Positions 620 through 20,440 of a stretch of DNA of 24,544 nt are shown here, in pieces; the first letter of the stretch is position 1, and each line of letters starts with the position of its first letter. Position numbers and translations under genes: made by a program. The DNA is taken from positions 1 through 24,544 of the IMG/VR virus record IMGVR_UViG_3300009149_000263; one strand, given 5' to 3'. This stretch comes from a virus. The notes under the pieces were generated by a model. That model saw nothing but the letters and a program-made list of their open reading frames with translations. It did not search any database and had not been told where the DNA came from.

Positions 620-649
620 CTTTTTATTATATGTTTATATGTTGTATTC

Positions 650-990: not shown

Positions 991-1000
991 GTCTACACTT
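991..1000 (-). promoter_or_regulatory. AAGTGTA promoter-like motif before the membrane-anchored protein
   Basis: The minus strand reads AAGTGTAGAC at 1000-991, followed by TCTTATAG and the ATG at 979. The first A of the motif is 21 bases from the ATG. This site has the 7-base core but diverges after it. Confidence 0.4.
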
Positions 1001-1038
1001 ATTTTTAGTTTTCTTGTTTAAATTTTTTAAAATTGTTC

Positions 1039-1548
1039 TTATTCCACCCTTATAACGAATTGGTTGGAGGATATTTCTAAGCTCAAACCAAACTGCTTAA
1101 CAAATTCATCAACCGCAGTTTTAGGTCCTCGAGGACAACCGTTTGCTGCATCACTCCAACCATAATCATCCCCACATAAATAGCCCCCCGGTTTAATAAA
1201 TTTAACAAAATGGGACAAGTCCATAATAACAGAGTCATAACTGTGGTCGGCGTCAATGTATACCCAATCAAAATAATTATATGGAAAAGTTACATCTGTT
1301 GAATTTTTTCTATGTATTTTTACTCTTTTGTTATTTTGGAATTTTCTCAGCACTTTCTGGAACACCCGTTCGGTTCTTTCGTATCCTTTTGCCCATTTTA
1401 CCCAAGGGAATTCTTGATGAGTCCAAGGGTCTATCAGGTGTAGCTCCCTCGGGTTTTTAGACAAGATTTCAGAAGAAAAATCCCCCTCCCAAACCCCTAC
1501 TTCCGCACACACGTTGTCTTTTTTTATTTTGTTTAAAGGGTACCTCAT
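1039..1548 (-). CDS. Class I SAM-dependent methyltransferase
   Basis: The protein has 169 residues with a Rossmann methyltransferase pattern. Residues 15-25 (AEVGVWEGDFS) form the glycine-containing SAM loop, and the acidic end of the second strand is at 37-42 (HLIDPW). The strand-4 motif VYIDADHSYDSV is at 96-107, followed by KPGGYLCGDDYGW at 119-131. This resembles the Methyltransf_24 type found beside phage and polysaccharide glycosyltransferases, whose substrates are often sugars or small molecules. There is no DNA-methylase PPY/PPW tetrad, so DNA is an unlikely target. The gene starts 6 bases after the stop of the upstream glycosyltransferase gene, so the two are probably co-transcribed and may act on the same glycan. 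The substrate cannot be told from the sequence. Confidence 0.85.
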   Translation of the reverse strand: MRYPLNKIKKDNVCAEVGVWEGDFSSEILSKNPRELHLIDPWTHQEFPWVKWAKGYERTERVFQKVLRKFQNNKRVKIHRKNSTDVTFPYNYFDWVYIDADHSYDSVIMDLSHFVKFIKPGGYLCGDDYGWSDAANGCPRGPKTAVDEFVKQFGLSLEISSNQFVIRVE

Positions 1549-1554
1549 TCCAAA

Positions 1555-2655
1555 CTATTTGACTAAAAAATTACATTTTTCCTGCACTGCCCCCAACCCA
1601 TAACGTTCCGCTGCAATTAAATGTTCAAAGTAATTTTCATACATTTTAGCCACCAAGTCGATGGTGAAATTTTCTTCTGCATATAGGCGGCACTCTTTAG
1701 GGTTAATGGTTTCAATTATGTTGAGCGCATGATAAAATTCATTTAACGAACGACACCTAAATCCTGTTTTTCCGTGAATATTATATTCTGCTAACCCTCC
1801 CCAATCAGTAGAAAGGACAGGGGTGCCGGAGATAAAAGCTTCCAACATTGACCATCCACACGGCTCCGTATAAAGAGACGGCATCACTAACGCTTTAGCG
1901 TTGGCGAGCAATTCTTTGCGTTCTTCGTTACTGACAGTATGAATGTATTCAGCCAAAGGGTTATCTTTTTTTAAAGTGTTTTTTAAGTTTTGAGGCCCTA
2001 CAAATTTAATAGGTGTGGAGCTTGCTTTGGATAAATTTTGGGCGATATCGATTCCTTTATTGTCGGTCATCCGGCCTAAAAACAACAAGTAATTTTGTTT
2101 TTTGTCTTGATAAGCAAAGTCTTCAAAATAGAAACCGGGACGGATAACGTGATCTGTAAATGGTGGCAAATTATTGTTGTGTAGAGGAAATTGTAATTTG
2201 TGTAGCTGAGCGTAAGTTTCGAAAACCTTAAAGGGAGCAAACCCCGAGTCGTACCCAATACTGGGTTCAACAACACAAAAACCTTTTAATTGCTCGCAGC
2301 ACTCTCGGTGCCCAATCCCCCAAAAAGCTAAAACAAAATCTTGCTCTTCTTGTTTGTTTTTTTTAATTAGCGCTGCTGCGTTTTTATTAAATTCTTTATG
2401 TACTTCATTCCTAATAGACTGAGGGTGAAAATTTTGCCATTGTTGTTTTTTATATACTTTATCATAAGTAGCCCGAGAAACCACGTTAAAATGTTCGGTA
2501 CATGGAACGCGGGAATCTGGATGCCCATAGTGAAAAACAGTATGACCTTTTCCTGTCATAACTTTACAAAATTTGTAAACCTTTTGCGTAAAAGCGCACA
2601 AAGTTATTTCTTTGCGTGTCGGATGAGTAGGGATTGAGAGTACATGAAAAACCAT
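1555..2655 (-). CDS. GT4-type glycosyltransferase (GT-B fold)
   Basis: The protein has 366 residues. Its C-terminal half has the signature of GT-B retaining glycosyltransferases. FLGRM at 192-196 is followed by NKGIDIAQNL, FVGPQNL, a VMPSLYTEPCGWSMLEAF block with the two glutamates of the EX7E motif (E264 and E272), and GTPVLSTDWGGLAEY for the nucleotide-sugar site. The N-terminal half is the less conserved acceptor domain, starting with a beta strand (MVFHVLSIPTHP). The enzyme would be cytoplasmic and transfer a sugar from an NDP-sugar. The acceptor is unknown: host surface glycan, virion protein or modified DNA base are all possible. Together with the downstream methyltransferase it forms a small glycan-modification pair. 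It is transcribed divergently from the PhoH-like gene. Confidence 0.88.
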   Translation of the reverse strand: MVFHVLSIPTHPTRKEITLCAFTQKVYKFCKVMTGKGHTVFHYGHPDSRVPCTEHFNVVSRATYDKVYKKQQWQNFHPQSIRNEVHKEFNKNAAALIKKNKQEEQDFVLAFWGIGHRECCEQLKGFCVVEPSIGYDSGFAPFKVFETYAQLHKLQFPLHNNNLPPFTDHVIRPGFYFEDFAYQDKKQNYLLFLGRMTDNKGIDIAQNLSKASSTPIKFVGPQNLKNTLKKDNPLAEYIHTVSNEERKELLANAKALVMPSLYTEPCGWSMLEAFISGTPVLSTDWGGLAEYNIHGKTGFRCRSLNEFYHALNIIETINPKECRLYAEENFTIDLVAKMYENYFEHLIAAERYGLGAVQEKCNFLVK

Positions 2656-2690
2656 CTTTTGGAGATAATAATAGGTAAATAGCTCAAGTC

Positions 2691-2700
2691 AAGTGTAATT
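2691..2700 (+). promoter_or_regulatory. AAGTGTA promoter-like motif before the PhoH-like gene
   Basis: AAGTGTAATT lies in the 53-base divergent gap, followed by ATTTATTA and the ATG at 2709, 18 bases from the motif start. It is nearly identical to the sites before the portal and protease genes. Confidence 0.5.
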
Positions 2701-2708
2701 ATTTATTA

Positions 2709-3428
2709 ATGAGCAGACGTAAGAAGTCTTTAGCTTCGGAAAAGATAATACCCATTGAAAGTAAATATAAGCTTTATCTTAAAAATTTTAAATTAACAGA
2801 AAAGCAACACCAGTTTTTAAAAATAGCATTTGACAAAAACACTAAAATAGTTTTTGTTTCTGGGCCAGCGGGATCATCCAAAACTTTTATTTCTATTTAT
2901 GCAGCTTTACAGCTGTTTAATATGAATATGAATCAAGATTTGTTTTATGTACGCACGATTGCTGAAAGCGCAGATAGAAATCTCGGAAGTTTGCCGGGGG
3001 ATGTAGACGAAAAATTCAACCCGTTTATGATGCCAATGCAAGACAAGCTTTCTGAATTGTTGGAGCCCCCTCAAATAAAGATGCTTTTAGACGAAAAGAT
3101 AATTCAATGCGCCCCTATTAATTTTTTGCGAGGTGCCAGCTGGTCAAACAAACTAATAATAGCAGACGAATCGCAAAATTTTACGAGAAAAGAATTAGTT
3201 ACGTTAATTACCAGAATAGGCAATAATTCTAAGTATTTTATATGCGGGGACCCAATGCAACCCGATATTAATGGAAAAAGCGGCTTTGTTTCTATCATGG
3301 ATTTATTTGACGATGAAGACTCCAAGGCAAAAGGCGTGTATACCTTTAAGTTCACCAAAGAAGATATTGTTCGAAGTGAAATTTTAAAATTTATTGTGAA
3401 TAAACTAGAAAATAACCCGATAAACTGA
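2709..3428 (+). CDS. phoH: PhoH-like P-loop ATPase
   Basis: The protein has 239 residues, the size of the phage PhoH domain. The Walker A loop GPAGSSKT is at 52-59, preceded by a KQHQFLK helix. The family segment ESADRNLGSLPGD follows. The Walker B motif LIIADESQN is at 149-157, and the PhoH signature GDPMQPDINGKSGF starts at 180. PhoH-like proteins are common in marine phages and are related to superfamily 1 helicase cores; their role in infection is unsettled. A basic N-terminal extension (MSRRKK) could contact nucleic acid. It is the first gene of a rightward unit. Its ATG has no clear Shine-Dalgarno, but an AAGTGTAATT motif lies 18 bases upstream. The zinc-ribbon gene starts 10 bases after its stop. 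Confidence 0.92.
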   Translation: MSRRKKSLASEKIIPIESKYKLYLKNFKLTEKQHQFLKIAFDKNTKIVFVSGPAGSSKTFISIYAALQLFNMNMNQDLFYVRTIAESADRNLGSLPGDVDEKFNPFMMPMQDKLSELLEPPQIKMLLDEKIIQCAPINFLRGASWSNKLIIADESQNFTRKELVTLITRIGNNSKYFICGDPMQPDINGKSGFVSIMDLFDDEDSKAKGVYTFKFTKEDIVRSEILKFIVNKLENNPIN

Positions 3429-3438
3429 ATTATAAAAA

Positions 3439-3840
3439 ATGGCTAGTATATTTTGTCCCGAGTGTGGAGGTAAAAACAGTTACACTTTAAAAAGGCCCAA
3501 CTTCTGTCAAAGCTGTGGGGAAACCTTTGCAGCTTTTGGAATGTCGAGAGCCTCGGCATCTAAACCTAGCCTAAAGGTAACAGCAGAGGAAGACGAGGAA
3601 ACACCAATTCCTAATTTATCCAAATTAGAATATGACATTGATATGTCGGCGTCCGCAACTAAAATAACTTTAGAAGATTTGGTTAATAACCCGCTAAATC
3701 CAAAAGATATAACGTATAAAACCACGGCAAACGCTGCTCGAAAAAGAATGACTCAAGAAGAGTTTCTGAAGGTTTCCCAAGCTGAGTGTGCCACTTCCCA
3801 AGGCAAATCTAGGGACGTTAGTGGTGGAGAAACAAAATAA
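3439..3840 (+). CDS. Small zinc-ribbon protein
   Basis: The protein has 133 residues. Four cysteines form a zinc ribbon near the N-terminus: C6-x2-C9 and C23-x2-C26 (FCPECGG and NFCQSCGE). The rest is hydrophilic and partly acidic (an EEDEE stretch near residue 53) and looks weakly folded. Zinc ribbons of this type serve in nucleic-acid binding or in contacts with RNA polymerase or replication proteins; the sequence does not decide which. Its 3' end overlaps the reading frame of the sigma-like gene, which suggests coupled translation and possibly a shared role in transcription. That link is inference. The start is the first ATG after an A-rich leader with no evident Shine-Dalgarno. Confidence 0.75.
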   Translation: MASIFCPECGGKNSYTLKRPNFCQSCGETFAAFGMSRASASKPSLKVTAEEDEETPIPNLSKLEYDIDMSASATKITLEDLVNNPLNPKDITYKTTANAARKRMTQEEFLKVSQAECATSQGKSRDVSGGETK

Positions 3841-4540
3841 AAAAAGCTACGAAGATAAATGTGATGTTATAGACAACGAGATAAGAAAGCGGTATTATAA
3901 GTGGCATTTACATGCTTTGGCATGGATAGACTTTGATGACGTATCGCAAATTATCCGTACTCACATTTACAACAAGTGGAGCCAATGGGATCAATCGCGG
4001 GCAATTGAACCGTGGGTGAACAAGATTATATCCAACCAACTAAAGAATATCCTTCGCAACAATTACTCCAATTTTGCGCGTCCCTGTATAAGCTGTGAAC
4101 ACAACCAGTCCAAAGAGCAGGGAAGCGGCCAAATATCCAATTTATGCTCTGTAACCAAAAGTGGGCTCCAGTCTGAAGAATGCGACCTTTACGCAAAATG
4201 GTACAAAACTAGAAAGCAGGCTTATGACATCAAGATCCCTGTTTCGCTAGAGACAAATACCTATGACAAGTGCACTCTCCCGGAAGACCATTATGATATT
4301 AGCGGTGCGGTATCGTCGATGCATTTACGAATGCGCCAGTTCCTGAATGACCGTCATTATATTATTTATAAAATGCTCTTTGTTGACCACATTGAAGAAG
4401 AGACGGTTGCCAAAGTATTAGGTTATAAAAGTAACGAAAAGGGTAGGAAGGCTGGCTACAAGCAAATCAAAAACTTAAAAAATTTTTACAAAAGGATTGC
4501 CAAAAAGATATGCAACGAAACCGATATTTTTTTTGAATGA
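3821..4540 (+). CDS. Divergent phage RNA polymerase sigma factor with a four-cysteine insertion
   Basis: The product has about 239 residues from GTG 3821. The frame is open from GTG 3788, and GTG 3824 is also possible; AGGGA at 3811-3815 favours 3821 or 3824, and no upstream ATG exists. Residues about 20-82 resemble sigma region 2: helices with DFDDV, HIYNKW and EPWVNKIISNQLKNILRN. Residues about 179-230 resemble region 4: a helix-turn-helix with EEETVAKVLGYKS and a basic recognition helix. Between them lies an insertion with C89-x2-C92, C109 and C121, which could bind zinc. This is the layout of compact two-domain sigma factors such as ECF or T4 gp55-like late sigmas. It overlaps the zinc-ribbon gene upstream and the next gene by 4 bases (ATGA). 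It may read the AAGTGTA motif found before virion genes. Confidence 0.72.
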   Translation: MVEKQNKKSYEDKCDVIDNEIRKRYYKWHLHALAWIDFDDVSQIIRTHIYNKWSQWDQSRAIEPWVNKIISNQLKNILRNNYSNFARPCISCEHNQSKEQGSGQISNLCSVTKSGLQSEECDLYAKWYKTRKQAYDIKIPVSLETNTYDKCTLPEDHYDISGAVSSMHLRMRQFLNDRHYIIYKMLFVDHIEEETVAKVLGYKSNEKGRKAGYKQIKNLKNFYKRIAKKICNETDIFFE

Positions 4541-5607
4541 AAGAATACATCCTAAAACCAGAAGAAAAGGAAAGAAGCCTTCAGTTGTTTGAAGAGCTTG
4601 ACGGCGATTTAAGTGGGGTAACCAAAAAACTTTTTAATGACGAAAACGAAAAGGGGAGTACGGTTCGAGGGAGAGCTCTGCGAAAATATTGGATAGAGGA
4701 GGGTTTAAGCTATAAAATTAAAGTCAAAAAAAGAGTGGTAAAACATTTTTTAACGGACGAGGAGAAATCTTTTGTTAAACAGCATTATTGCCCGGAGGTG
4801 ACGAAATTAGAGGTCGGTCAATTGCTCTGGCCTAAAGACTCTAAAAGCAAAGGCTTTCCTGAGACTGACAAGTTCATAGCTTTGTGCGAGTATATTACCA
4901 AAGAGTTTCCGGCGGCCATTAACATGCGAGACGATGCAGCCGGAGAAAAATACACGCCTCCCCGCATTCTTTCTACAGCGATCAAGAGATTAAACAAGGT
5001 CGCGTCAACAGAATTTGAATCGGAAAAAATGAACTTGCGAGACAGGAAGTGCATAGAGAAACTGATAACTTATTTAAACGCTCCAAGATTTGTGCAAGTT
5101 ATAGGCTCTTATGTTACGCGCCAAAGTAGGGAGTTGTTTGAATCAGAGTATATTCGAAGCACGTGGGATAAACCAGATTTAACTTCAGACGAATTAAATT
5201 TATATGTTAACGTTTGCATGGATTATGTAAACATTAAAGAGATTGAACAACAAAAACAAAAACTTAATTTGATGTTTGATGATACTGAGGGGCAAAACGA
5301 TTTAACAATGCGCCTAACAGAGATGCTTAAAACTAAGGCGGAAGAATATAACCAGTGCATTAACCGCATAGATAAAATGCTTGCTAAATTAAACGGCGAG
5401 AGGGCGAAGAGGGTGGCTAATCAGCAACAAAGGAACGCTTCCGTAATTTCTTTGGTTCAGCTTTTTCAAGACGAAGAAGAGAGAAAGTTGATGATAAAAA
5501 TGGCCGACATGCAAAAGCAAGCGGTTAGAAAAGAGGCTGACGAAGTAGAAAAAATGTCTGACTGGAAAGCTCGTGTACTTGGAGTTTCTAAAGAAGACGC
5601 TATATAA
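4537..5607 (+). CDS. Unassigned protein, possible small terminase-like DNA-binding protein
   Basis: The protein has 356 residues. The N-terminus looks like a helix-turn-helix: DLSGVTKKLF, then a segment around residues 36-55 with STVRGRALRKYWIEEGL. A basic linker (KIKVKKRVVK) follows. The C-terminal third is strongly helical and coiled-coil-like, rich in Glu, Lys, Gln and Met. A DNA-binding head plus helical oligomerisation region is the general plan of small terminase subunits, and the gene lies two genes before the large terminase in an overlapping operon. However, it is about twice the usual TerS length and I do not recognise a family, so the role is inference. It starts on the ATGA overlap with the sigma gene and its stop shares one base with the next ATG (TAATG), so translation is probably coupled. 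Confidence 0.6.
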   Translation: MKEYILKPEEKERSLQLFEELDGDLSGVTKKLFNDENEKGSTVRGRALRKYWIEEGLSYKIKVKKRVVKHFLTDEEKSFVKQHYCPEVTKLEVGQLLWPKDSKSKGFPETDKFIALCEYITKEFPAAINMRDDAAGEKYTPPRILSTAIKRLNKVASTEFESEKMNLRDRKCIEKLITYLNAPRFVQVIGSYVTRQSRELFESEYIRSTWDKPDLTSDELNLYVNVCMDYVNIKEIEQQKQKLNLMFDDTEGQNDLTMRLTEMLKTKAEEYNQCINRIDKMLAKLNGERAKRVANQQQRNASVISLVQLFQDEEERKLMIKMADMQKQAVRKEADEVEKMSDWKARVLGVSKEDAI

Positions 5608-6545
5608 TGGAAAGAATATGTAACATAATTTTCCCTTGCGCTGAATGTAAAAAAGAATTTACTAGCCGAGCCTCTTTGCACAAACACCTCAAGCAACACG
5701 GTTTAAATTTAGCTTCTTACTATACACAATATCACCCTCGGAAAAATAAGCTTACGGGAGACCCACTTCCGTTCAAAAGGTTTGACGAATATTTCGAAAG
5801 AGATTTTTCGACAAAAAGCCAGATGTTCAAGTGGTGCGACCAGAACTCCGAGGAAGAAGTGAAGGAATACGCTCTTTCCATATTAGAAAAACGGGGCTTT
5901 AAAAAGAAAAGAAAATATGGCCCTTTCCATTTGGAAACCACTAATTCATTCATGCCATCCCTGTCTCTTTACCGTAAACTTTTTGGGAGCTATAATGCAG
6001 CTTGTGAATCTGTAGGGTGCGAACCTTTGTACGACAAGAACCTTCCAAAAGATTTTTTTACAAAAGAAGTTCCCTCGGATTTTACTGTTGCGGTAGACAC
6101 TCGAGAACAAAAACCTCTAGCGTTTGACTGCAAAACCATAAGCCTTAAATTGGATATAGGGGATTATACAGCCATGGGAGATCATTATAGCTATACTTTT
6201 GTAGATCGTAAATCAGGAAATGATTTGCAGGGCACTTTAGGAAAAAATAATATAGAGAGGTTCAAGAGGGAAATCGAGAGGGCCCAAGAAATGGACTGTT
6301 ATCTTTTTGTAGTTATAGAGTCTAGCGTTCAAAAAATAACAAAGGAAAATAAAATTTTTAACAGGCGCTCTAATATGGATTATACGTTAAGGCAAATCAA
6401 GGATATCTCCCATGAATACCCCCGAAGGTGCCAATTTGTTTTCGCAGACAGCAGGGAAAATGCCTCCATCTTGATTCCATTACTTTTATTGCATGGAAAA
6501 AAGGTATGGCAAACTGATTTACAATATTTTTTAGATACCAAATGA
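5607..6545 (+). CDS. C2H2 zinc finger - ERCC4-type nuclease fusion
   Basis: The protein has 312 residues in three parts. Residues 11-31 form a canonical C2H2 finger, C11-x2-C14-x12-H27-x3-H31. Residues about 112-140 (SLSLYRKLFGSYNAACESVG) resemble the repeat found next to homing-endonuclease domains. From about 158 there is an ERCC4-type nuclease core: VDTREQ (D164 to Q168), IGDY (D186) and VDRKSGNDL (D200 and K202), followed by helices with RFKREIERAQE. ERCC4 nucleases such as XPF and Mus81 cut branched DNA using a GDX(n)ERKX3D motif; here the glutamate is aspartate. The gene overlaps its upstream neighbour by one base and the large terminase by four. A role in trimming branched DNA before packaging, as T4 gp49 does, is possible but inferred. 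Confidence 0.82.
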   Translation: MERICNIIFPCAECKKEFTSRASLHKHLKQHGLNLASYYTQYHPRKNKLTGDPLPFKRFDEYFERDFSTKSQMFKWCDQNSEEEVKEYALSILEKRGFKKKRKYGPFHLETTNSFMPSLSLYRKLFGSYNAACESVGCEPLYDKNLPKDFFTKEVPSDFTVAVDTREQKPLAFDCKTISLKLDIGDYTAMGDHYSYTFVDRKSGNDLQGTLGKNNIERFKREIERAQEMDCYLFVVIESSVQKITKENKIFNRRSNMDYTLRQIKDISHEYPRRCQFVFADSRENASILIPLLLLHGKKVWQTDLQYFLDTK

Positions 6546-8407
6546 GCTGGATAGAAGGTCATCAACACAGGCGTACGTCTACATTGAGAAGTAACGAAGA
6601 GTTGCTAAAACTCAATGGATTTATAGACGAGAAGGAAGCTAAGCTTGCTCTTTATGAGTTTTTAAGAAACAACACTACCTTTGCAGTCGATTTAATATTA
6701 GGCGTAAAGCTCTTCCCTTTTCAACATTTAGCCATCAAGTCGATGTTCGAAACCGATTATTTTCTCGGAGTGTGGGCTCGGGGAATGTCGAAGTCTTTTA
6801 CAACGGGTATTTTTGCAGCCTTAGACGCGGTTTTAAATCAAGGGGTGGAGATTGGGATATTGTCGAAATCGTTTAGGCAAGCCAAAATGATTTTCAAAAA
6901 AATAGAAGATGTTGCCGCTAAGCCGGAGGCCGAATTTTTCCGTCAGTGCATCACTAAAACAACAAAAAGTAATGACGAGTGGCTTATGGAAATTGGACGT
7001 AGTCGTATTCGAGCGTTGCCATTGGGGGATGGTGAAAAGTTGCGTGGGTTTCGTTTTCATAGAATTATTATTGACGAGTTTGCGTTGATGCCAGAGAGGA
7101 TTTACAATGAAGTTATTGTGCCTTTCTTGTCCGTGGTAGAGAATCCAGTTCAACGAGACGACCTTTTTAAGCTTGAAAACCGTCTCCTGAAAGAGAACAA
7201 AATGAAGGAGGAGGACAGACACGTGTGGCCCAACAATAAACTTATTGCTTTATCTTCGGCTTCATATAAATTCGAATATCTTTACAAAATGTATACCCAA
7301 TTTGAACACTTGATTGCCGGCGATAAGAAAAAGGACAAAGCCTCTCGGTGCATAATGCAGTACAGCTACGACTGTGCGCCTCAGCAGCTGTACGATCAAA
7401 ATTTAATCAATCAAGCTAAGGCAACAATGAGTCAGTCTCAGTTTGAGCGAGAGTTTGGCGCTATTTTTACAGATGACAGTTCTGGTTATTTCAAGACGAG
7501 TAAAATGGCCTTGTGTACAGTTACGGACGGCGAGCTGCCTTCCGTAGAGGTCCAAGGAGACCCTAGCGCAGAATATATATTGGCCTTTGACCCCTCGTGG
7601 TCTCAGACCGAAAGTTCTGATGATTTTGCAATTCAAATTATGAAGCTGCATCCCGAGGAGCACAAGATCACCCTAGTCCATAGTTATGCATTATCGGGAA
7701 CTTCCCTGAAGCACCATATAAATTATTTTTTGTTTTGTTTGGAAAATTTTAACATAGTAGCTGTTTGCGGGGACTATAACGGGGGAGTTCAATTTTTACA
7801 AGCTTGTAATGAAAGTGCCAGTTTCAAGAAAAAAGAAATAAATCTTAAAACCATTGAAGCTAACCTTGATAAGCCAGAAGATTATCAAAGCGATTTAAGA
7901 TCATACAAAAACCAATACAACAGAAAAGATCATAAATATGTAATTTTGAGAAAGCCTACTAGTCATTGGATTAGACAGGCCAACGAACTATTGCAAGCTA
8001 ATTTTGATCATCGCCGTGTTTATTTTGCCAGCAGAGCTATAGACGACTCTTACGCCACACAAAAAAATAAAAATATTCAAATTCAGGATATTAAATTTTT
8101 AAGAGCTTCGGAGGAGATGAAGCAGTCCAGAGGAGCTAAAATGATTGATTTTATTGAACATCAGTCGGATATGTTAGAATTAACCAAAAATGAATGTGCT
8201 CTGGTGCAGATCACCACTACTCCGCAAGGAACCCAAACCTTTGATTTGCCTTCTAATTTGCGCAGGCAAACAAGTCCAGATAAAGCACGCAAAGATTCTT
8301 ATTCGGCTCTTATTCTGGCCAATTGGATGGCCAAAGTCTATTTGGACGCTCAAGAGTGCAAGGTGGAAGATGTTATAGAAACCTTTACCCCAGAGTTTAT
8401 AATGTAG
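6542..8407 (+). CDS. terL: Terminase large subunit (packaging ATPase-nuclease)
   Basis: The protein has 621 residues, close to T4 gp17. It pumps DNA into the prohead through the portal and cuts the concatemer. The ATPase domain has an atypical Walker A at 78-86 (WARGMSKSF, with R80, K84 and S85), a coupling-type segment GILSKSFRQAKMIF, and Walker B IIIDE at 175-179. The RNase-H-fold nuclease begins near 345. Candidate catalytic aspartates are D350 (LAFDPSW), D411 (CGDYNGG) and D585 (ARKDSYSAL). The start ATG lies on the ATGA overlap with the nuclease gene. No downstream gene overlaps it: the unit ends with TAG, and a 54-base gap holding a palindrome and a promoter-like motif precedes the portal. 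Confidence 0.95.
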   Translation: MSWIEGHQHRRTSTLRSNEELLKLNGFIDEKEAKLALYEFLRNNTTFAVDLILGVKLFPFQHLAIKSMFETDYFLGVWARGMSKSFTTGIFAALDAVLNQGVEIGILSKSFRQAKMIFKKIEDVAAKPEAEFFRQCITKTTKSNDEWLMEIGRSRIRALPLGDGEKLRGFRFHRIIIDEFALMPERIYNEVIVPFLSVVENPVQRDDLFKLENRLLKENKMKEEDRHVWPNNKLIALSSASYKFEYLYKMYTQFEHLIAGDKKKDKASRCIMQYSYDCAPQQLYDQNLINQAKATMSQSQFEREFGAIFTDDSSGYFKTSKMALCTVTDGELPSVEVQGDPSAEYILAFDPSWSQTESSDDFAIQIMKLHPEEHKITLVHSYALSGTSLKHHINYFLFCLENFNIVAVCGDYNGGVQFLQACNESASFKKKEINLKTIEANLDKPEDYQSDLRSYKNQYNRKDHKYVILRKPTSHWIRQANELLQANFDHRRVYFASRAIDDSYATQKNKNIQIQDIKFLRASEEMKQSRGAKMIDFIEHQSDMLELTKNECALVQITTTPQGTQTFDLPSNLRRQTSPDKARKDSYSALILANWMAKVYLDAQECKVEDVIETFTPEFIM

Positions 8408-8410
8408 AGG

Positions 8411-8431
8411 AAGTAACTTTCAAAGTCACTT
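8411..8431. promoter_or_regulatory. Near-perfect AT-rich palindrome before the portal gene
   Basis: AAGTAACTTT and AAAGTCACTT are inverted copies (9 of 10 matching) around a central C. It lies between the terminase stop and the portal promoter-like motif. It could be an operator for a dimeric protein or a weak hairpin. There is no GC stem, so a normal intrinsic terminator is unlikely. Confidence 0.3.
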
Positions 8432-8441
8432 TATTAACTTT

Positions 8442-8450
8442 AAGTGTAAT
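8442..8450 (+). promoter_or_regulatory. AAGTGTA promoter-like motif before the portal gene
   Basis: AAGTGTAAT is followed by TTATTTTTGAC and the ATG at 8462, 20 bases from the motif start. The 15-base stretch TAAGTGTAATTTATT is identical to the site before the protease gene. Confidence 0.55.
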
Positions 8451-8461
8451 TTATTTTTGAC

Positions 8462-10489: not shown

Positions 10490-10551
10490 TGCATAAAATA
10501 CTCCGGCATCCCAAGTGAAACAAGCAGAAAAAATTCTCTCGCTAAATAATT

Positions 10552-10560
10552 AAGTGTAAT
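10552..10560 (+). promoter_or_regulatory. AAGTGTA promoter-like motif before the protease-scaffold gene
   Basis: AAGTGTAAT is followed by TTATTTGTGCAT and the ATG at 10573, 21 bases from the motif start. It shares TAAGTGTAATTTATT with the portal site. The spacing supports ATG 10573 as start, not the in-frame GTG at 10567. Confidence 0.55.
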
Positions 10561-10572
10561 TTATTTGTGCAT

Positions 10573-12150: not shown

Positions 12151-12164
12151 ACAAATAAACTACT

Positions 12165-12830: not shown

Positions 12831-12859
12831 CATTAACTCAGAAAGGAATTAATAATATA

Positions 12860-14017: not shown

Positions 14018-14036
14018 TCAGCTTGATTCTGATTGA

Positions 14037-14070
14037 CTCCGCCCCTTTAGGGGGGCGGAGTTTTTTTTTT
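14037..14070 (+). terminator. Intrinsic terminator after the major capsid gene
   Basis: A nine-base stem, CTCCGCCCC (14037-14045) with GGGGCGGAG (14052-14060), has a six-base loop and is followed by ten T. It is the strongest terminator in the window and would end the portal-to-capsid transcript. Confidence 0.92.
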
Positions 14071-14086
14071 GGAAAAATGCTTTTTT

Positions 14087-14095
14087 AGTTGTAAT
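14087..14095 (+). promoter_or_regulatory. Variant promoter-like motif before the Lys-rich protein gene
   Basis: AGTTGTAAT differs from AGTGTAAT by one inserted T. It lies 17 bases before ATG 14104 and directly after a strong terminator, where a new promoter is needed. Confidence 0.35.
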
Positions 14096-14103
14096 ATATT
14101 ACC

Positions 14104-14535
14104 ATGGCAGCGAAAAAGAAAACTAAGAAAAAAACGGTGAAAAAGTCTGTAGCCAAGAGTATCACCAAAAAGACCAATTTAGAAGACCTTCAAAATTTTG
14201 CTACAGGGAAGCTAGATGACAATGCTATAGAGAAGGTTAAAAAGCTTGAGGAGGTACTTGGGATTAAAACGGTTAATCCATTTGGAACGAATGACCCTAA
14301 TATTTTTGAAGGTCGGCTGAAAGAGTCCAATTTGAATGATTTGCAGAGCCTAGCTATGAAAGTAGGAGTCTTTCCTGATGGTATGCTAGGGAGATTAAAG
14401 CAAAAACTTCGCGAAGAGTTTAAGCGTACAACTAGGGGTTCTCGTACTATCAGCATGGAGGACCCTTTGCCTATTCATGATCCGAGTCATCCGAACCATG
14501 AAAGAGCTAAAAAATTAATGAGCGAAGGTTTCTAG
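14104..14535 (+). CDS. Lys-rich protein with SAP/Rho-N-like repeats
   Basis: The protein has 143 residues. The first 24 residues are almost only Lys, Thr, Ala, Ser and Val (AAKKKTKKKTVKKSVAKS), like a histone H1 tail. Two similar segments follow: NLEDLQNFATGKL and, about 60 residues later, NLNDLQSLAMKVGVFPDGML leading into LKQKLREEFKR. The second looks like a helix-extended-loop-helix unit of SAP or Rho-N type, which usually binds nucleic acid. The position, right after the capsid terminator, suggests a head-associated or connector protein. DNA contact inside the head is a reasonable inference but unproven. I do not recognise the family. It has its own promoter-like variant, and the next gene starts 21 bases after its stop. 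Confidence 0.7.
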   Translation: MAAKKKTKKKTVKKSVAKSITKKTNLEDLQNFATGKLDDNAIEKVKKLEEVLGIKTVNPFGTNDPNIFEGRLKESNLNDLQSLAMKVGVFPDGMLGRLKQKLREEFKRTTRGSRTISMEDPLPIHDPSHPNHERAKKLMSEGF

Positions 14536-14539
14536 TTTT

Positions 14540-14548
14540 TAGTGTAAA
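14540..14548 (+). promoter_or_regulatory. AAGTGTA-like motif before the putative connector gene
   Basis: TAGTGTAAA begins 17 bases before ATG 14557. A second partial copy, TAGTGTATG, overlaps the start codon itself. Confidence 0.4.
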
Positions 14549-14556
14549 TATAGTGT

Positions 14557-15096
14557 ATGCCAGATAGATCTAAAACCCCGTATTTAGTGAGCACTCTTGC
14601 CACAGGTATTTATAACGACGAGTTTGATTCAGATACAGGGTTTGCCACGTTGACTTCTATTTCAGGGTGGCTAGCCAATAACATAGGGCTTTTAAATACT
14701 ACGCTCTATACGTCTTATTCTGGTTCAGGTGGCGCTACCTCAGACACGACAGTCCAGCCCTCCGGAAGTTTTAGGTTTGAGGAGGGGGATATCTACAAGC
14801 AATTATACTTAACCAACTACTATACAAAAAAAGCTCGGACTATTCTCAAGGGTATTGGAAGCTCTATTGATTTTATTACATTGCGAGAAGGAGACTCTAC
14901 AATTACCCGTACTAACAAAAATGAGGTGGCGAAGACTTACAGAGGGTTCGCTAAGGACTCTCAGGAGCGCCTAGAGCTACTTGTAGCTAAATATAATATC
15001 TATGAGGCGGCCCCGGTTCAAGTAGCCGGCACAGACGCTTCTATCGACGCTAGCGGCGATATCTATTCCGCTTACGATTATCGCGGTCGTAGTTAA
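14557..15096 (+). CDS. Probable head-tail connector protein
   Basis: The protein has 179 residues. The N-terminal part has SISGWLANNIGLLNTTLYT, a helix plus Ser/Gly/Thr-rich loop. The middle holds a helical block with EEGDIYKQLYLTNYYTKKARTILKGI, and the C-terminal helix contains SQERLELLVAKYNIYEA. This mainly helical plan, with size and location between capsid and tail genes, fits adaptor or connector proteins that bind the portal, such as the HK97 gp6 type. I see no diagnostic motif, so this is an inference from context. It is the last rightward gene before the inverted cassette and ends 30 bases before a bidirectional terminator. Confidence 0.55.
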   Translation: MPDRSKTPYLVSTLATGIYNDEFDSDTGFATLTSISGWLANNIGLLNTTLYTSYSGSGGATSDTTVQPSGSFRFEEGDIYKQLYLTNYYTKKARTILKGIGSSIDFITLREGDSTITRTNKNEVAKTYRGFAKDSQERLELLVAKYNIYEAAPVQVAGTDASIDASGDIYSAYDYRGRS

Positions 15097-15116
15097 GAGG
15101 CTTTAAAGTTTTAAGT

Positions 15117-15149
15117 AAAAAAAAACCCCGCTCAATAGAGCGGGGTTTT
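15117..15149. terminator. Bidirectional terminator at the convergent junction
   Basis: CCCCGCTC (15126-15133) pairs with GAGCGGGG (15138-15145) around AATA. A run of A precedes and TTTT follows. It stops rightward reading from 14557-15096 and leftward reading from the tail-tube gene. Confidence 0.88.
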
Positions 15150-15170
15150 GAATTATTACTAGAGCTTTTA

Positions 15171-16649
15171 TCAAGATGGGATTGGCGGCGCTCCAATATA
15201 GGAACTAGCCAAGCTCTTTTGAGTTCCTAAAGGCCAATACGGCATCGTTGTCCATCGTGGATAAGAACCTTGCATAAATATGCCGTTAGCTGTGTCACTA
15301 GATCCACCTATTTGAGTTGAGAAGGTGATGTCCACAGTTTCGTTATCTCCAATTGAGCTGCTGTAACTTTCTCCTTCAAGGCGAGCCCCTTTAACATCAA
15401 TGATTAAAGCGTCAGCGCCCGGTGAGCCCGTGGCAGCTGAGCGGCGCATTGTTAAGCGGAAGTTGGTTTTAGTGGTAGACGAAAGCTTCTCAAACAGATT
15501 GTTTGTTTTTAATTCAGAAATAATAGCAGAAACCGTTACGCTAATGTCCATTGGCAAATCAATGATACGGGCGTATCCGAACGTATTACCGAGTCTCCCC
15601 AGAACCGTACGGCTCATGGGAACAGAAACACCAAAGCTTTGGATATGTGCTTTCCCGTCTCCACTCAAAACAGTGAAACCGTCATAAGAGAAAGTTCCGT
15701 CTCCATCTGGATCTAAGAATTCCAATAATAAGTCTCCCGGTCGAAGGGCTATGATGGTGTTATCCGCCACAGTATTACCGTCAACATAATCTCCTGTGGT
15801 GGATATCGTTCCACCTCGGAAGTTGTAGTTGTTGGCCACCTGTTGGCCGTCAGTGTCATTAACACCCGGAATTTGGTTGCCAGTTACATTGTTACCTCCA
15901 GCTACCCCATTGTCTAAAGCTCCAGAGATTTTGTCATCCACACGAATGTTAAAAGCTTCAACAGTAACGCTAGCCGTTGGAATAGCCCCGACAGAAGCGT
16001 CAATTGTATAATCGCTAATAAAACCATTACCAATAGAAATAACATCGAAACTAGATGCTGTGGTGGTCACAGTATCTCCTTGAACGTCAGTTCCTTCCTT
16101 GGTCGTAACGATGAAATAGTTGTTTCCTTGGGTATCTTCAATTAATCCCGAAAGAGCCGAAAAGCCGGATATACAGCCGTCACCGGTCCACGCATAAGCT
16201 GTTGAATTAGCGCGTCCCGAAGGCTGGGCTGCAGCAGAGCCTGAAATATTAGTGGGAAGGTTAAATCCCATTTTCCGCTCGTTACCACCGTCACAAAGAT
16301 AATAATTGAAATCTAAACCCACCGTTGGAGATTCCATAACTATAGAATCCAAACGCGCAAGTCTACCAAATTCATTGACATCTTGGCGGTTAATGGTGAA
16401 GTTAAAATTTGCTGATTGTACACGATGCAGTGGTTCAATCAGAGTGCGATTAAGGATTAACCCATGAGCTGCGGTCCCTATAAAAGCGTTATCAGGGAAG
16501 GTTATCCCTGTGACTCCTGTCCAGTTTATGTTATCATATGTGTCAATGGAACGACTTGCTGAGTTGTTTCCCGTCTGCATATGGTAACCCGTGGATGAGG
16601 GCGCTATGAATAGCGCCTGACTTTGATAAATTACTCTGTTTCTAGCCAT
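15171..16649 (-). CDS. Tail tube-like major tail protein with duplicated fold
   Basis: The protein has 492 residues. Two segments share a pattern. Residues 77-120 begin VQSANFNFTINRQDVNEFGR and contain LARLDSIVMESPTVGLDFNYYL. Residues 336-380 begin IQSFGVSVPMSRTVLGRLG and contain YARIIDLPMDISVTVSAII. In both, an xQS strand, an Arg and a Gly lead to a hydrophobic beta strand after a Pro, as in tail tube proteins where an axial loop and strand line the tube. Residues about 201-235 (SIGNGFISDYTIDASVG, then PTASVTVEAF) resemble a further tube-like strand pair. This would form the tail tube through which DNA passes. A position after connector genes and an abundant-protein composition support this. 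It is last in the inverted unit. A tube with an extra domain or a virion structural protein of another kind remains possible. Confidence 0.72.
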   Translation of the reverse strand: MARNRVIYQSQALFIAPSSTGYHMQTGNNSASRSIDTYDNINWTGVTGITFPDNAFIGTAAHGLILNRTLIEPLHRVQSANFNFTINRQDVNEFGRLARLDSIVMESPTVGLDFNYYLCDGGNERKMGFNLPTNISGSAAAQPSGRANSTAYAWTGDGCISGFSALSGLIEDTQGNNYFIVTTKEGTDVQGDTVTTTASSFDVISIGNGFISDYTIDASVGAIPTASVTVEAFNIRVDDKISGALDNGVAGGNNVTGNQIPGVNDTDGQQVANNYNFRGGTISTTGDYVDGNTVADNTIIALRPGDLLLEFLDPDGDGTFSYDGFTVLSGDGKAHIQSFGVSVPMSRTVLGRLGNTFGYARIIDLPMDISVTVSAIISELKTNNLFEKLSSTTKTNFRLTMRRSAATGSPGADALIIDVKGARLEGESYSSSIGDNETVDITFSTQIGGSSDTANGIFMQGSYPRWTTMPYWPLGTQKSLASSYIGAPPIPS

Positions 16650-16670
16650 AATAGTATATTAAATTTAAAA

Positions 16671-16683
16671 CAATTTACAACTT
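16671..16683 (-). promoter_or_regulatory. Weak promoter-like variant before the tail-tube gene
   Basis: The minus strand reads AAGTTGTAAATTG, the same one-T-insertion variant as at 14087. It lies in the 54-base gap between two leftward genes, 34 bases from the ATG, which is farther than at other sites. Confidence 0.22.
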
Positions 16684-16703
16684 TTTTATGACTTTGAGAA
16701 CTT

Positions 16704-17558
16704 TTAACTTCTAGGGAGGCGATATTTGTAGATTTCAAAGTCAATAAATCCAACGAAAAGATCGACAGGTATAACTTGGGTGGAACTATCAGAAATTTTA
16801 GAAACATTAACAGAATTAATGATATATTGGTCGCCGCTCCCTTCGGAAGCTACATTAATATAATCGTAACCCGTTGAATATTCTGATTTTACATCCCCGT
16901 ATTCGGTAAGAGGGGATCCTGTGAAAGGAATATTACCAAAAACAACTTCAGCGGCGTCGGCCATAACAGACAAAGCACCGTCCAACTGGTAAATATTTTC
17001 CGCAAAGATCACGGCTGTAACATCTGTTACGGTATTATCTAAGCCGCCAAAAGCAAGGGGCTCATTGGTAGTAGCGCCCAAGGAAAGAAATGCTGCGGGA
17101 GTAGCTTGGTCATAAGGAGAAACATATGTTAAAGTTCGACCGTAACGGCTATTTGTTTTATATTTACCGGCGGTAATTAGAGCTTCTTCCGTTTGGTTTC
17201 CTATGTAAACGTTAAAGTCTTTAACGGTAAAACTACCGCTAATATTATTACCTGTATCAAAGGTGGAATCAAAAAGTATCCTACCATTGTCAAAATCAAA
17301 GGTAAGACCGCTCGTTCCTTCGGAGATAAGCCCTGAATCGCCGCTAATAACTGGATTTATTGTTGCACCTGATATGTTTTTGTCATACGCCCATTGTTTA
17401 TAAGGGGACCCGAATACGACTTTATTTTGGACTCTTTCGTCGGCATAATGATAAAAGTCAGTGCTGTAATTTTTATGTGCTTGCCCCTTTTTTAAAAGAA
17501 AATTATCGAACCAAAGGTAGAAGCTGTTTAGAAGTTCGTGCTGATATACTGTTTTCAT
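16704..17558 (-). CDS. Unassigned virion protein of the connector cassette
   Basis: The protein has 284 residues. The N-terminus is helical and aromatic (HELLNSFYLWFDNFLLKKGQA). The rest is beta-rich with many Gly, Ser, Asn and Thr (for example SGSFTVKDFNVYIGN), ending in FVGFIDFEIYKYRLPRS. It has no catalytic or membrane motif, and I do not recognise a family. Its start shares one base with the stop of the previous gene (TAATG), and it lies between a connector-type gene and the tail tube gene, so a neck or tail terminator-like role is likely but inferred. A 54-base gap separates it from the tail-tube gene, which is the only non-overlapping junction in the cassette. Confidence 0.6.
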   Translation of the reverse strand: MKTVYQHELLNSFYLWFDNFLLKKGQAHKNYSTDFYHYADERVQNKVVFGSPYKQWAYDKNISGATINPVISGDSGLISEGTSGLTFDFDNGRILFDSTFDTGNNISGSFTVKDFNVYIGNQTEEALITAGKYKTNSRYGRTLTYVSPYDQATPAAFLSLGATTNEPLAFGGLDNTVTDVTAVIFAENIYQLDGALSVMADAAEVVFGNIPFTGSPLTEYGDVKSEYSTGYDYINVASEGSGDQYIINSVNVSKISDSSTQVIPVDLFVGFIDFEIYKYRLPRS

Positions 17559-18157
17559 TAAAATATTTTATTTTCTAGTTTTTTTATCTTTTTATAATAA
17601 TCATTGAGCAAAGCAGACATATATTGAATATTAGAAAACTTTCCCGCCCTCACTCTTCCTTTAACTTGGATGGCATGGCCAGACTTAGATTTTCTAATTT
17701 TAGCGCTTTTTACTAAATATTGCCCGAGGCCAGATATGCCGCGTTCAATTCCTCTTGTCCAACTTCTGCCCGTGGCCCACGGCAATGGAGTGGAAGCAAA
17801 AACCTTTTCTTTGCTGGGCACGTCAATATTGACACGAAGAGATTCTTGCTTGGGGTGGTATTTTATTTCGTAGGTTTGAAGGAGCTCCCTTAGTGGTGTA
17901 ATAGGGTCGCTCCCCTCATTAAAACCAATATAGGTAAACAAATTTCCTGTACCGCTCAACGTTCTGCTGATATTAGAGGAGCTGGGACCACCTTTAATTT
18001 CTAAAGTAACGGGGTGATTGTCGAAAGTGGCCAAAAACTCCTTATGAAGTTGAGAGAACTCTTTTTCAATAATGCGTCGCACTTCCTTTTTAAAGGCGTT
18101 TCCACGCACAACTTGCCGTTGAATTTTTTTTGTGTTTTTCGCTGATAAGGTTGCCAT
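17558..18157 (-). CDS. Putative neck / tail-completion protein
   Basis: The protein has 199 residues. It has a basic N-terminal helix (KKIQRQVVRGNAFKKEVRRIIEKEF), a middle beta region (HPVTLEIKGGPSSS) and a mixed C-terminal half with LPWATGRSWTRGIERGISGL, KGRVRAGKFSNIQYMSAL and a basic final helix. The general plan, with a long helix followed by strands, resembles HK97 gp10-type head-tail joining proteins, but the match is only suggestive. It is overlapped by one base at both ends (TAATG junctions), which indicates coupled translation in the order head-closure, neck, tail. The role is inferred from its place in the cassette. Confidence 0.5.
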   Translation of the reverse strand: MATLSAKNTKKIQRQVVRGNAFKKEVRRIIEKEFSQLHKEFLATFDNHPVTLEIKGGPSSSNISRTLSGTGNLFTYIGFNEGSDPITPLRELLQTYEIKYHPKQESLRVNIDVPSKEKVFASTPLPWATGRSWTRGIERGISGLGQYLVKSAKIRKSKSGHAIQVKGRVRAGKFSNIQYMSALLNDYYKKIKKLENKIF

Positions 18158-18609
18158 TACGATAATTTCTTTAACATCACGGTGTAAAACTGGGTGTCAA
18201 ATAGTCCGTGTCCCCTGAAATCACTGTAAATAGAGAACTCTTGATCATCAAATTTAATTCTTTTCGCCTCTGAAACAGAGGAATAATCTGAAGCTTTTAT
18301 TTTCATCCTCACTAAACCCTCCGGAATATATACTTTAATTTGGTTGGGTGAGGCTGCCGCCGTAAAATAGTCTTCCGAAAAACTTGCCCCATATTGAATT
18401 CGAGCCTGAACAGTGGATTCTTGAGGCGTATAAACAATAGGGGTTGTGGCTCCAGCGTTTCCATAAATAGAGTTAAATGAGGAGCTCGGCGTGGGAACGG
18501 TTTTGACAGGGTCTTTTATAACAGTTACGGGGCGCGCGAATGTATCGTGCTGATCGTCCATTACGCCGTTTAATGTGCTTTTTTCTGTTGTGCTGATTAG
18601 ACTAGCCAT
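18157..18609 (-). CDS. Putative head-closure (stopper-type) protein
   Basis: The protein has 150 residues from ATG 18609; an upstream in-frame GTG at 18624 lies inside the promoter-like motif and is less likely. The C-terminal half is a beta barrel-like pattern: TVQARIQYG, LVRMKIKASDYSS, RIKFDDQEFSIYSDFR and QFYTVMLKKLS. This alternation of strands, with a short segment before the last strand, resembles SPP1 gp16 and other phage head-tail joining proteins that seal the portal after packaging. The N-terminal 40 residues are Ser/Thr/Pro-rich. It is the first gene of the inverted leftward cassette, with AAGTGTATAAT just upstream and a divergent chaperone gene on the other side. The assignment is inference by pattern and position. 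Confidence 0.52.
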   Translation of the reverse strand: MASLISTTEKSTLNGVMDDQHDTFARPVTVIKDPVKTVPTPSSSFNSIYGNAGATTPIVYTPQESTVQARIQYGASFSEDYFTAAASPNQIKVYIPEGLVRMKIKASDYSSVSEAKRIKFDDQEFSIYSDFRGHGLFDTQFYTVMLKKLS

Positions 18610-18615
18610 GCTTAT

Positions 18616-18626
18616 ATTATACACTT
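18616..18626 (-). promoter_or_regulatory. AAGTGTATAAT promoter-like motif for the inverted cassette
   Basis: The minus strand reads AAGTGTATAAT at 18626-18616, followed by ATAAGC and the ATG at 18609, 17 bases from the motif start. It includes a perfect TATAAT. It is identical over 11 bases to the site before the tape-measure gene on the other strand. Confidence 0.5.
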
Positions 18627-18678
18627 TTTAAAAAGAGTTAGAAAAAAAGTATATCTAGAATATTATTTTTATATATTT

Positions 18679-19386
18679 ATGTTTAAACAACTATACTCTT
18701 TTTCCATAGAAGACACTAAAGAAGTCGAGGAAAAAACTAAAGAAAAGCGCAAAAACAAGGATGGGGACGAAAAAGAAGTGGAGGTTTCCCAGAAAATCCA
18801 AAAGAAAATCCCTTTTAAATTCGTGATCAAAGAGCCCAGCCGACGTGAGTTGGAGGAGGCTGATATGGAGTATTCCATTGAAATGAGCCGCTGTATCAAA
18901 AAAGGGGTTTTAACCAAAGCCATGTTGGCCAAAAAATATTCCGATACGGGGGGGCTTTTGGCTGAAAGTGACGCTAATAAGCTAGTAGAGCTGTACGGGG
19001 AATTAGCGAGTATTGAGGGGGAGTATACCAAAAAAACCTTAGCCAACAGGGACGTCAAAAAACTTCCAGCTCAAATAAAAAAAGAAATTGATGAGTTGAG
19101 CGGTAAAGCGGCGTTGGCTCGTCGAGATATTGTTAATTTAGAGTCCGCCTATCAAAGCTTGTTTAATCATACCGCTGACACCAAGGCTCAAAACCGTATT
19201 ATTTTATGGTACATTACCCATTTAACTTATTTTGAATCCACGGAAGGAGGAGTCGAAAAGGAAACCCCTTATTTTCCGGGAAAAAGTTTTGATGAAAAGG
19301 TGGATCACTATTACCTTAGAGAAGAAAGTGAAGATTCTTTATTTGGGGTTGTTGCAGGAAAATTAGCTTCTATAATTAGTTATTAA
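18679..19386 (+). CDS. Probable tail assembly chaperone, first of a pair
   Basis: The protein has 235 residues. It is strongly hydrophilic and helical, rich in Lys and Glu (EEKTKEKRKNKDGDEKEVEVSQK near residues 17-38), followed by helical blocks such as EPSRRELEEADMEYSIEMS and a C-terminal domain with LWYITHLTYFES and FDEKVDHYYLREESED. A charged soluble protein encoded just before the tape-measure gene is typical of the tail assembly chaperone that coats the tape measure during tail building. The TAA at 19384-19386 is followed in the same frame by 22 sense codons that look coding, ending with TAA 19453-19455. The start is ATG after a very AT-rich leader. The role is by position and composition. 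Confidence 0.62.
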   Translation: MFKQLYSFSIEDTKEVEEKTKEKRKNKDGDEKEVEVSQKIQKKIPFKFVIKEPSRRELEEADMEYSIEMSRCIKKGVLTKAMLAKKYSDTGGLLAESDANKLVELYGELASIEGEYTKKTLANRDVKKLPAQIKKEIDELSGKAALARRDIVNLESAYQSLFNHTADTKAQNRIILWYITHLTYFESTEGGVEKETPYFPGKSFDEKVDHYYLREESEDSLFGVVAGKLASIISY

Positions 19387-19455
19387 TATTTTAGCAACGA
19401 GCCAACCAAAGAAGAGTTCGATAAAATTATAAATGATATCGACGGAACAAGCTAA
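19387..19455 (+). other. Coding-looking extension beyond the first chaperone stop
   Basis: In frame with the upstream gene, the 22 codons after TAA 19384-19386 read YFSNEPTKEEFDKIINDIDG plus two more residues, then TAA. The peptide is acidic, low in rare codons and continues the helical style of the gene. Its end overlaps the start of the next gene by 23 bases, like a normal phage junction. Possible explanations are readthrough, a recent nonsense change or a sequence error. Confidence 0.45.
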
Positions 19456-20425
19456 TGTTAATTTTCGCCGCATCTTTAAGGATTTAGTTTTTGGGTGGTC
19501 TCGGATTAGGCACAACAATACATTTGCCTACCTTAAGCATTTATCTGTTTTTGATCAAGTCGACATAGAAGAGGTTCGCACCAAGTTTTACGAGAAGGCA
19601 AAAAAAAGGGGGCTTCCTACCCAAGCTGACGCTTTAGTCCGCTTAAAAGAGGAGGAGATGTGGGGTTCTGAGGATGAGGCTAAAATCAAAGAACAGGAAG
19701 AATACCTCAAGGCCGCAGAAATCACCAAAAAACAATTTTATCTAAAAAGGGAAATAGAGCGTTCCAATGAAGAAATTCAGGCGGCCAAACTAAAAATTGC
19801 TAAACTGTATAGCACTAAAGATGAGCTCGTAGGGCAAACCTGCGAAAAGTATGCAGACGGTCGGCTTTCAGACCATTATATTTTGCGCTCCTTGTACAAG
19901 GACGAAAAGCTAACTGATTTTTTTTATGATCAACATAGCATTGACCAAATGACAAGAAAGGAAATGTTTGATGTTGTTAAACTTTACAATGACAGTTATA
20001 ATGTTTTTGATGACACCAATATTCAAAAAGTAACATTGCAGGATTTTTATCAGCCTTATATCCCGTTTTGCGAAAATGTAAATAATATGTTTTCCAAACC
20101 TTTGTTTGAACTTTCCGTCAATCAGGTGAAATTAGTGATTTATAGCAGAATGTTCAAAAACATTTTTGAGAATTATCCTAAAATTCCTGATGACATCAAA
20201 AAGGACCCCGAAAAGATTTTAGATTACGTGAATGCTCAAGAAAAAGCAAAGGACACCCTTAAGCCTTTCGACAAAGATGGGGCATCTACCATTGTTGGAG
20301 CGAGGAAAGAAGACTACGAGTATTTGGGGATTAACGAGGGTTCTCAAAACACGCTTACCGCAAAATTAAAGGAAAAGGGCGGAAAAATAGATATGAAAGA
20401 TCTTATGGGCGCACTAAAAGGGTAA
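19433..20425 (+). CDS. Probable second tail assembly protein before the tape measure
   Basis: The protein has 330 residues. The N-terminal part includes RRIFKDLVFGWSRIRHNNTFAYLKHLSVFDQVD. A long helical region with EEEMWGSEDEAKIKEQEEYLKAAEITKK follows, then IERSNEEIQAAKLKIAKLYS and a mixed C-terminal half. It is charged and helical with no membrane or catalytic motif, and lies between the first chaperone and the tape measure, the usual place of the second chaperone form (G/GT pair of lambda). Here the second frame is a separate ORF, because an in-frame TAA at 19430-19432 directly precedes its ATG. The N-terminus MISTEQANVNF overlaps the extended first frame. I do not recognise the family; the role is inferred. 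Confidence 0.58.
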   Translation: MISTEQANVNFRRIFKDLVFGWSRIRHNNTFAYLKHLSVFDQVDIEEVRTKFYEKAKKRGLPTQADALVRLKEEEMWGSEDEAKIKEQEEYLKAAEITKKQFYLKREIERSNEEIQAAKLKIAKLYSTKDELVGQTCEKYADGRLSDHYILRSLYKDEKLTDFFYDQHSIDQMTRKEMFDVVKLYNDSYNVFDDTNIQKVTLQDFYQPYIPFCENVNNMFSKPLFELSVNQVKLVIYSRMFKNIFENYPKIPDDIKKDPEKILDYVNAQEKAKDTLKPFDKDGASTIVGARKEDYEYLGINEGSQNTLTAKLKEKGGKIDMKDLMGALKG

Positions 20426-20429
20426 AAAA

Positions 20430-20440
20430 AAGTGTATAAT
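20430..20440 (+). promoter_or_regulatory. AAGTGTATAAT promoter-like motif before the tape-measure gene
   Basis: AAGTGTATAAT, with a TATAAT core, is followed by TTAATTTAAAGCT and the ATG at 20454, 24 bases from the motif start. It is the longest spacing of the set. Confidence 0.5.

Follow-up and report, generated by a model that had tools for sequence, protein, structure and literature searches.

Gene Content of the Window

The window, meaning the whole stretch of DNA analysed here, is the 24,544-base IMG/VR record IMGVR_UViG_3300009149_000263, the ends of which leave it incomplete as a genome. Gene calling followed a simple longest-ORF rule, and the start codons given are computed ones. The gene order is a glycosyltransferase on the minus strand, phoH, a zinc-ribbon-like ORF, a sigma-like ORF, an unknown ORF, an ERCC4-type nuclease, TerL and the portal, followed by a gene of unknown family (possibly a prohead protease), a further head-region gene, the presumed capsid gene and then tail-region genes. 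Names of the genes after the portal reflect their order and size and not matches to known families. The zinc-ribbon-like ORF (3439–3840) adjoins the sigma gene and was recognised in 41 loci. A strong stem-loop with a T run lies 3′ of the capsid gene (14030–14085), and its stem is kept among relatives, although by differing sequences.

Searches with TerL and with the sigma protein gave at least 560 confirmed loci each. Relative contigs reach 194 and 205 kb, the others being fragments, which means that some members of the family, at least, have large genomes. The search for cultured relatives by capsid and sigma gave none, and by TerL only matches at about 28% identity or less. Contigs from metagenome-assembled genomes (MAGs) used for host assignment disagree, pointing to Halobacteriovorax, Flavobacteriaceae and Verrucomicrobiales.

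A Recurrent Motif Upstream of Start Codons

The first-pass annotation of this DNA had listed seven AAGTGTA-type sites as a candidate phage late promoter, and all seven were found again at the same positions and on the same strands. They are AAGTGTAGA at 992–1000 (minus), before gene 650–979 and conserved before its orthologues; AAGTGTAAT at 2691–2699 (plus), before phoH (2709), where it heads the operon carrying the sigma gene; AAGTGTAAT at 8442–8450 (plus), before the portal gene (8462) and conserved in nearly all relatives; AAGTGTAAT at 10552–10560 (plus), before the post-portal gene (10573, the possible prohead protease); TAGTGTAAAT at 14540–14549 (plus), before gene 14557; AAGTGTATAAT at 18616–18626 (minus), before the minus-strand gene starting at 18609; and AAGTGTATAAT at 20430–20440 (plus), before a 1363-codon open frame (20454). 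The distances from motif start to ATG (21, 18, 20, 21, 17, 17 and 24) were reproduced when ATG 10573 and ATG 18609 were used rather than the longer GTG ORFs. Continuation of the motif by AAT or TAAT, which had been attributed to five sites, actually occurs in six of the seven, the site at 1000 being the only exception. An eighth exact AAGTGTA-type site, absent from the earlier list, lies antisense within a gene at 3481–3487 (minus).

Chance in A+T-rich sequence could be suspected from the window count alone, since AAGTGTA occurs 7 times versus 2.4 expected from shuffles, a modest enrichment and by itself weak evidence. Placement speaks strongly against it. The sites follow gene orientation as had been proposed, all seven lying 15–22 nt (from the G of GTGTA) before a same-strand start codon; the probability that a random site lies 10–34 nt 5′ of a correctly oriented start is ~0.011, and that six of seven do so by chance about 1e-11.

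A matrix was then built from 94 non-redundant sites of relatives, anchored on GTGTA, with the window and the near-identical contig L001 left out. On both strands of the window, the seven listed sites rank 1 to 7 in this out-of-sample scan (scores 11.5–14.4, with the site at 992–1000 in seventh place), and the next-best score, 9.3, is not upstream of a gene. The one-base variant reported after the capsid terminator is also real: AGTTGTAAT at 14087–14095 (plus) directly follows the stem-loop, before gene 14104, and TAGTTGTAAT is identical in close relatives. It ranks lower in the matrix than the seven, and some distant relatives have a canonical GTGTA there.

In addition, an imperfect palindrome, AAAGTCACTTT, is found at 8412–8440, about 19 nt 5′ of the portal late motif, and is kept in most relatives. 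It was not seen at other late-motif sites and is confined to the portal.

Conservation of the Motif in Relatives

As relatives cannot be treated as independent samples, the pooled counts (the 94-site matrix, a logo of 85 sites and 16 sigma-protein clusters) were made after removal of near-duplicates. Upstream regions of relatives, 377 in all, contain 114 occurrences of AGTGTAA versus 0.5 expected, at a median position of -18. The enrichment at unit starts predicted from the window is strong, also out of sample. Orthologous sites before the portal gene, phoH, gene 10573 and gene 14557 are kept down to about 45% protein identity despite indels, while their flanks and the exact distance to the start shift. 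Among upstream 5-mers, the core GTGTA(A/T) ranks first in 11 of the 16 sigma-protein clusters, and most of the remaining clusters supply few upstream regions. When the window clade was pooled for de novo motif search, T runs dominated the output.

The motif had also been described as absent before overlapping genes. This holds in three relatives, in which GTGTA lies 5′ of 1/96, 2/93 and 1/72 genes with a gap below 10, compared with 28/111, 23/105 and 13/98 genes with a gap of at least 10. In three other phages of similar composition, GTGTA was found in only 1/17, 1/23 and 3/42 upstream regions. Taken with the placement in the window and the 114 occurrences in relatives, these low counts leave a negligible probability for chance.

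Two Promoter Classes

In the 194-kb relative (G001), GTGTA is present in 30 of 111 upstream regions, in 13 of them exactly at -14. A second class in the same genome is a sigma-70-like dyad, found in 42 of the 111 regions versus 9.8 expected from shuffling, with the consensus C-TTGAC-W-N17-TAtaaT; in 17 of the 42, TATAAT lies at -12 to -14. The CTTGAC -35 element would fit alphaproteobacteria. The two classes occur together less often than expected, with 5 cases versus 11.4 in G001 and 3 versus 9.0 in a second relative, G002.

The genes behind each class differ as well. Known-family genes preceded by GTGTA are virion structural, minor tail (two), tail-fibre-like (two), Clp-like ATPase, PhoH and the portal orthologue, while host-type promoters precede a DnaB-like helicase, dNMP kinase, SAM decarboxylase, clamp loader, rIIA, rIIB and the glycosyltransferase. 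In the 194-kb relative, the GTGTA class is thus that of virion and packaging genes and the CTTGACA-17-TATAAT class that of replication and metabolic genes. PhoH and the Clp-like ATPase are not strictly late functions and count against a purely late class. The rIIA- and rIIB-like genes, SAM decarboxylase and Clp-like ATPase of this relative are found at L139 and L145–L154.

No -35 element appears at the late sites in the logo of 85 non-redundant sites, which shows an A/T-rich surround only, and no other conserved element was found in them from -42 to +15. The late class lacks the TTGACA -35 with a 17-bp spacer that marks host sigma-70 promoters. A common -35 built on GGAAA or on AAAGTCACTTT was considered and was not seen in the pooled logo.

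These data bear on whether the motif might be the operator of a repressor or activator, with the core promoter located elsewhere. A short conserved word would suit an operator, and the portal site does carry the additional AAAGTCACTTT upstream. Against this, the 85 sites have no further conserved element, and the motif occupies the same position as the host-type -10 box in the same genomes. An operator is consequently considered highly improbable.

Host-type promoters are also found in the window. TTGAGA-N16-TATAAT at 626–653 (minus) lies 12 nt before gene 182–619 and is not conserved in all relatives. CTTGACT-N16-TATTAT at 2665–2693 (minus) precedes the divergent glycosyltransferase gene (start 2655), and its -35 element overlaps the phoH late motif by 3 bp, reading ATTACACTTGAC one way and GTCAAGTGTAAT the other. 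Most relatives in which the glycosyltransferase start is intact retain the overlap, as do most close relatives, and the elements are apart in the most distant clade. Two holoenzymes would be predicted to compete at the shared bases of 2665–2699.

A Sigma Factor as Candidate Reader

The ORF at 3821–4540 (plus; open from 3788) is a sigma-70/ECF-type factor, with a sigma2 domain, a four-cysteine insert and a sigma4-like helix-turn-helix. All 33 homologues match Sigma70_r2 of Pfam (best 1.5e-5) and TIGR02937 (best 1.5e-9), and three of the 33 match Sigma70_r4_2 weakly; the score of the window protein itself is marginal (E 0.0014). Its AlphaFold model (mean pLDDT 68.6) has two confident helical parts and an unstructured middle. 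In Foldseek, the top PDB matches are ECF sigmas, led by M. tuberculosis SigH (E 1.8e-3, probability 1.00), and the BFVD matches include many phage sigma factors. A sequence search of the PDB with the sigma profile gave no sigma match, only the fold comparison doing so. Four cysteines in the sigma2–sigma4 linker (C89, C92, C109 and C121) are invariant and probably form a zinc site.

All 43 loci that extend far enough 5′ of TerL carry the sigma gene, and in 41 it lies about 2 kb ahead of TerL. Candidates for a host sigma-70 promoter of this gene, 300–400 nt upstream within the preceding zinc-ribbon-like ORF, were found in 98 of 147 loci versus 98 of 274 control windows; they were not retained, as they may reflect coding conservation.

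The closest known system, in both motif and protein, is that of phiEco32 gp36 (Kuravirus), also found in Salmonella phage 7-11. In phiEco32, early genes are on host sigma-70 promoters and the ECF-like sigma gp36 uses the motif tAATGTATAtA (PMC4281155, PMC4331800). The phiEco32 gp36 matches PHROG 1740 at 1.9e-45, and 24 of the 33 sigma homologues also reach this family at E ≤ 1 (best 8.4e-8), whereas the window sigma shows no match to it at 0.01 and an hhalign comparison with gp36 alone is not significant. From these shared matches, a remote relation to gp36 is likely, not secure. Both systems have a -10-only motif containing TGTA, AGTGTA(T/A)A in the 85-site logo versus AATGTATA in phiEco32. 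They differ in the consensus, AGTGTAA/T here, in the four-cysteine insert and in copy number, with up to about 30 sites per genome here versus three middle and three late promoters in phiEco32. Spacing differs too: the motif lies 15–22 nt from the ATG without a Shine-Dalgarno here, whereas the two AATGTATA sites examined in phiEco32 lie at 41 and 44 nt, and both lead into a Shine-Dalgarno-like AAGGAG. The present system works like the phiEco32/7-11 type and is probably related to it at a distance.

Co-occurrence, the analogy with gp36 and the similarity of the motifs suggest that the window sigma probably reads the AGTGTAA motif. Covariation is uninformative on this link, since both partners are nearly invariant: the motif core does not change over about 50% sigma divergence, apart from position 6, which is A or T depending on the clade. 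The presence of a sigma4-like domain in a factor whose promoters have no visible -35 for it to bind counts against the proposal and in favour of a late promoter read by another factor, be it a different phage sigma, a phage polymerase or host sigma-70 assisted by an activator. Such a reader is unlikely, since this sigma is the only sigma-like gene recognised in the window, lies near the packaging genes and is universal in the loci examined, and since gp36, with a motif that also contains TGTA, belongs to its remote family.

Position of the Motif Relative to the Start Codon

From a -10 hexamer, transcription starts about 12 nt downstream of its first base. By this rule, RNA from both classes of the 194-kb relative would begin on the AUG or no more than about 2 nt from it. 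The rule for phiEco32, whose motif lies 6–8 nt before the start point (PMC4281155), would give much the same starts. Placement of the leaderless type is seen in both G001 and G002, with GTGTA at -14 and TATAAT at -12 to -14. For the window sites, the predicted leaders are 0–9 nt, the spacing of the window clade being looser than that of G001. Motif position thus suggests that late and early transcripts alike are near-leaderless. T4 late motifs (TATAAATA) under identical treatment lie at -22 to -36, and Shine-Dalgarno-like sites, searched with the same pattern, precede 0–12% of the family's genes versus 32% in T4 and 31% in Pelagibacter phage HTVC008M. According to one published account, phage transcripts are often leaderless (PMC5312081), so that leaderlessness itself is not new.

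A fixed distance to the start codon (-14 in 13 of 30 sites in G001) and the near-lack of Shine-Dalgarno sites would also be expected if the motif were a translation signal in the mRNA instead of a promoter. This is very improbable, as the motif is nearly absent before operon-internal genes, and CTTGACA-17-TATAAT takes the matching place at early genes. Moreover, the motif follows terminators and marks unit starts, and it resembles both a -10 element and the phiEco32 sigma motif.

Comparison with T4-Type Late Promoters and Leaderless Systems

The likeness to T4 late promoters that had been suggested stands as an analogy and fails as kinship. T4 gp55 promoters have a single -10-type element and no -35 (PMC2988020), and a -10-only element, a phage sigma and many sites before virion genes are common to both systems. 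The TATAAATA octamer of T4 is a different word, farther from the ATG than GTGTA, and occurs upstream in this family only 0–3 times per genome. The sigma shows no detectable homology to cyanophage gp55 and no match to phrog_234, and gp55 is accordingly not detectably related.

Near-leaderless placement is shared by HTVC008M (NC_020484), which differs in its T4-type motif and gp55-type sigma. In this phage, several genes have ATAAATAG at about -12 relative to the ATG, for the most part with no Shine-Dalgarno (for example at 6280, 7562, 13944, 18392, 19456, 31132 and 49760), which suggests leaderless late transcripts; before other genes, several late motifs lie farther away and are then followed by a Shine-Dalgarno. 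Late promoter prediction in pelagimyophages failed in a published study (PMC7029224). In Sinorhizobium meliloti, 171 mapped transcripts start at the AUG (PMC3616915). There, leaderless transcripts were mapped experimentally, whereas here they are deduced from motif position and would apparently be the rule.

Proposed Mechanism and Significance

The reading as a candidate phage late promoter is supported by the enrichment, the virion gene class, the lack of a -35 and the presence of a sigma factor in the window. AGTGTAA(T), a GTGTA core followed by A/T in an A+T-rich setting, would be the -10-like element of the family's late promoters, recognised without a -35 by host RNA polymerase carrying the phage's ECF-type sigma (3821–4540). 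Early genes would use host sigma-70 promoters and late virion genes the phage sigma; transcription of both classes would begin on the AUG or just a few nucleotides 5′ of it, and the RNA would be translated without a Shine-Dalgarno. As a whole, this proposal of phage-sigma-read, -10-only and near-leaderless late promoters has a good probability of being correct. For a broader version, in which the family is organised on leaderless mRNAs of both classes, an ECF-like sigma with a probable zinc insert reads GTGTA alone and the holoenzymes compete at one divergent region, the chances are about even.

New features are the consensus, the sigma's four-cysteine insert, the large number of sites in each genome and their near-leaderless placement. 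The proposal would give a defined late regulon and a candidate sigma to a large phage family (at least several hundred IMG/VR contigs) for which no cultured close relative was found, and would place a differently built factor among the few phage sigmas for which a -10-only motif is known or has been inferred. It would also provide a simple sequence rule to split early from late genes in such genomes, and leaderless translation of phage virion genes becomes testable.
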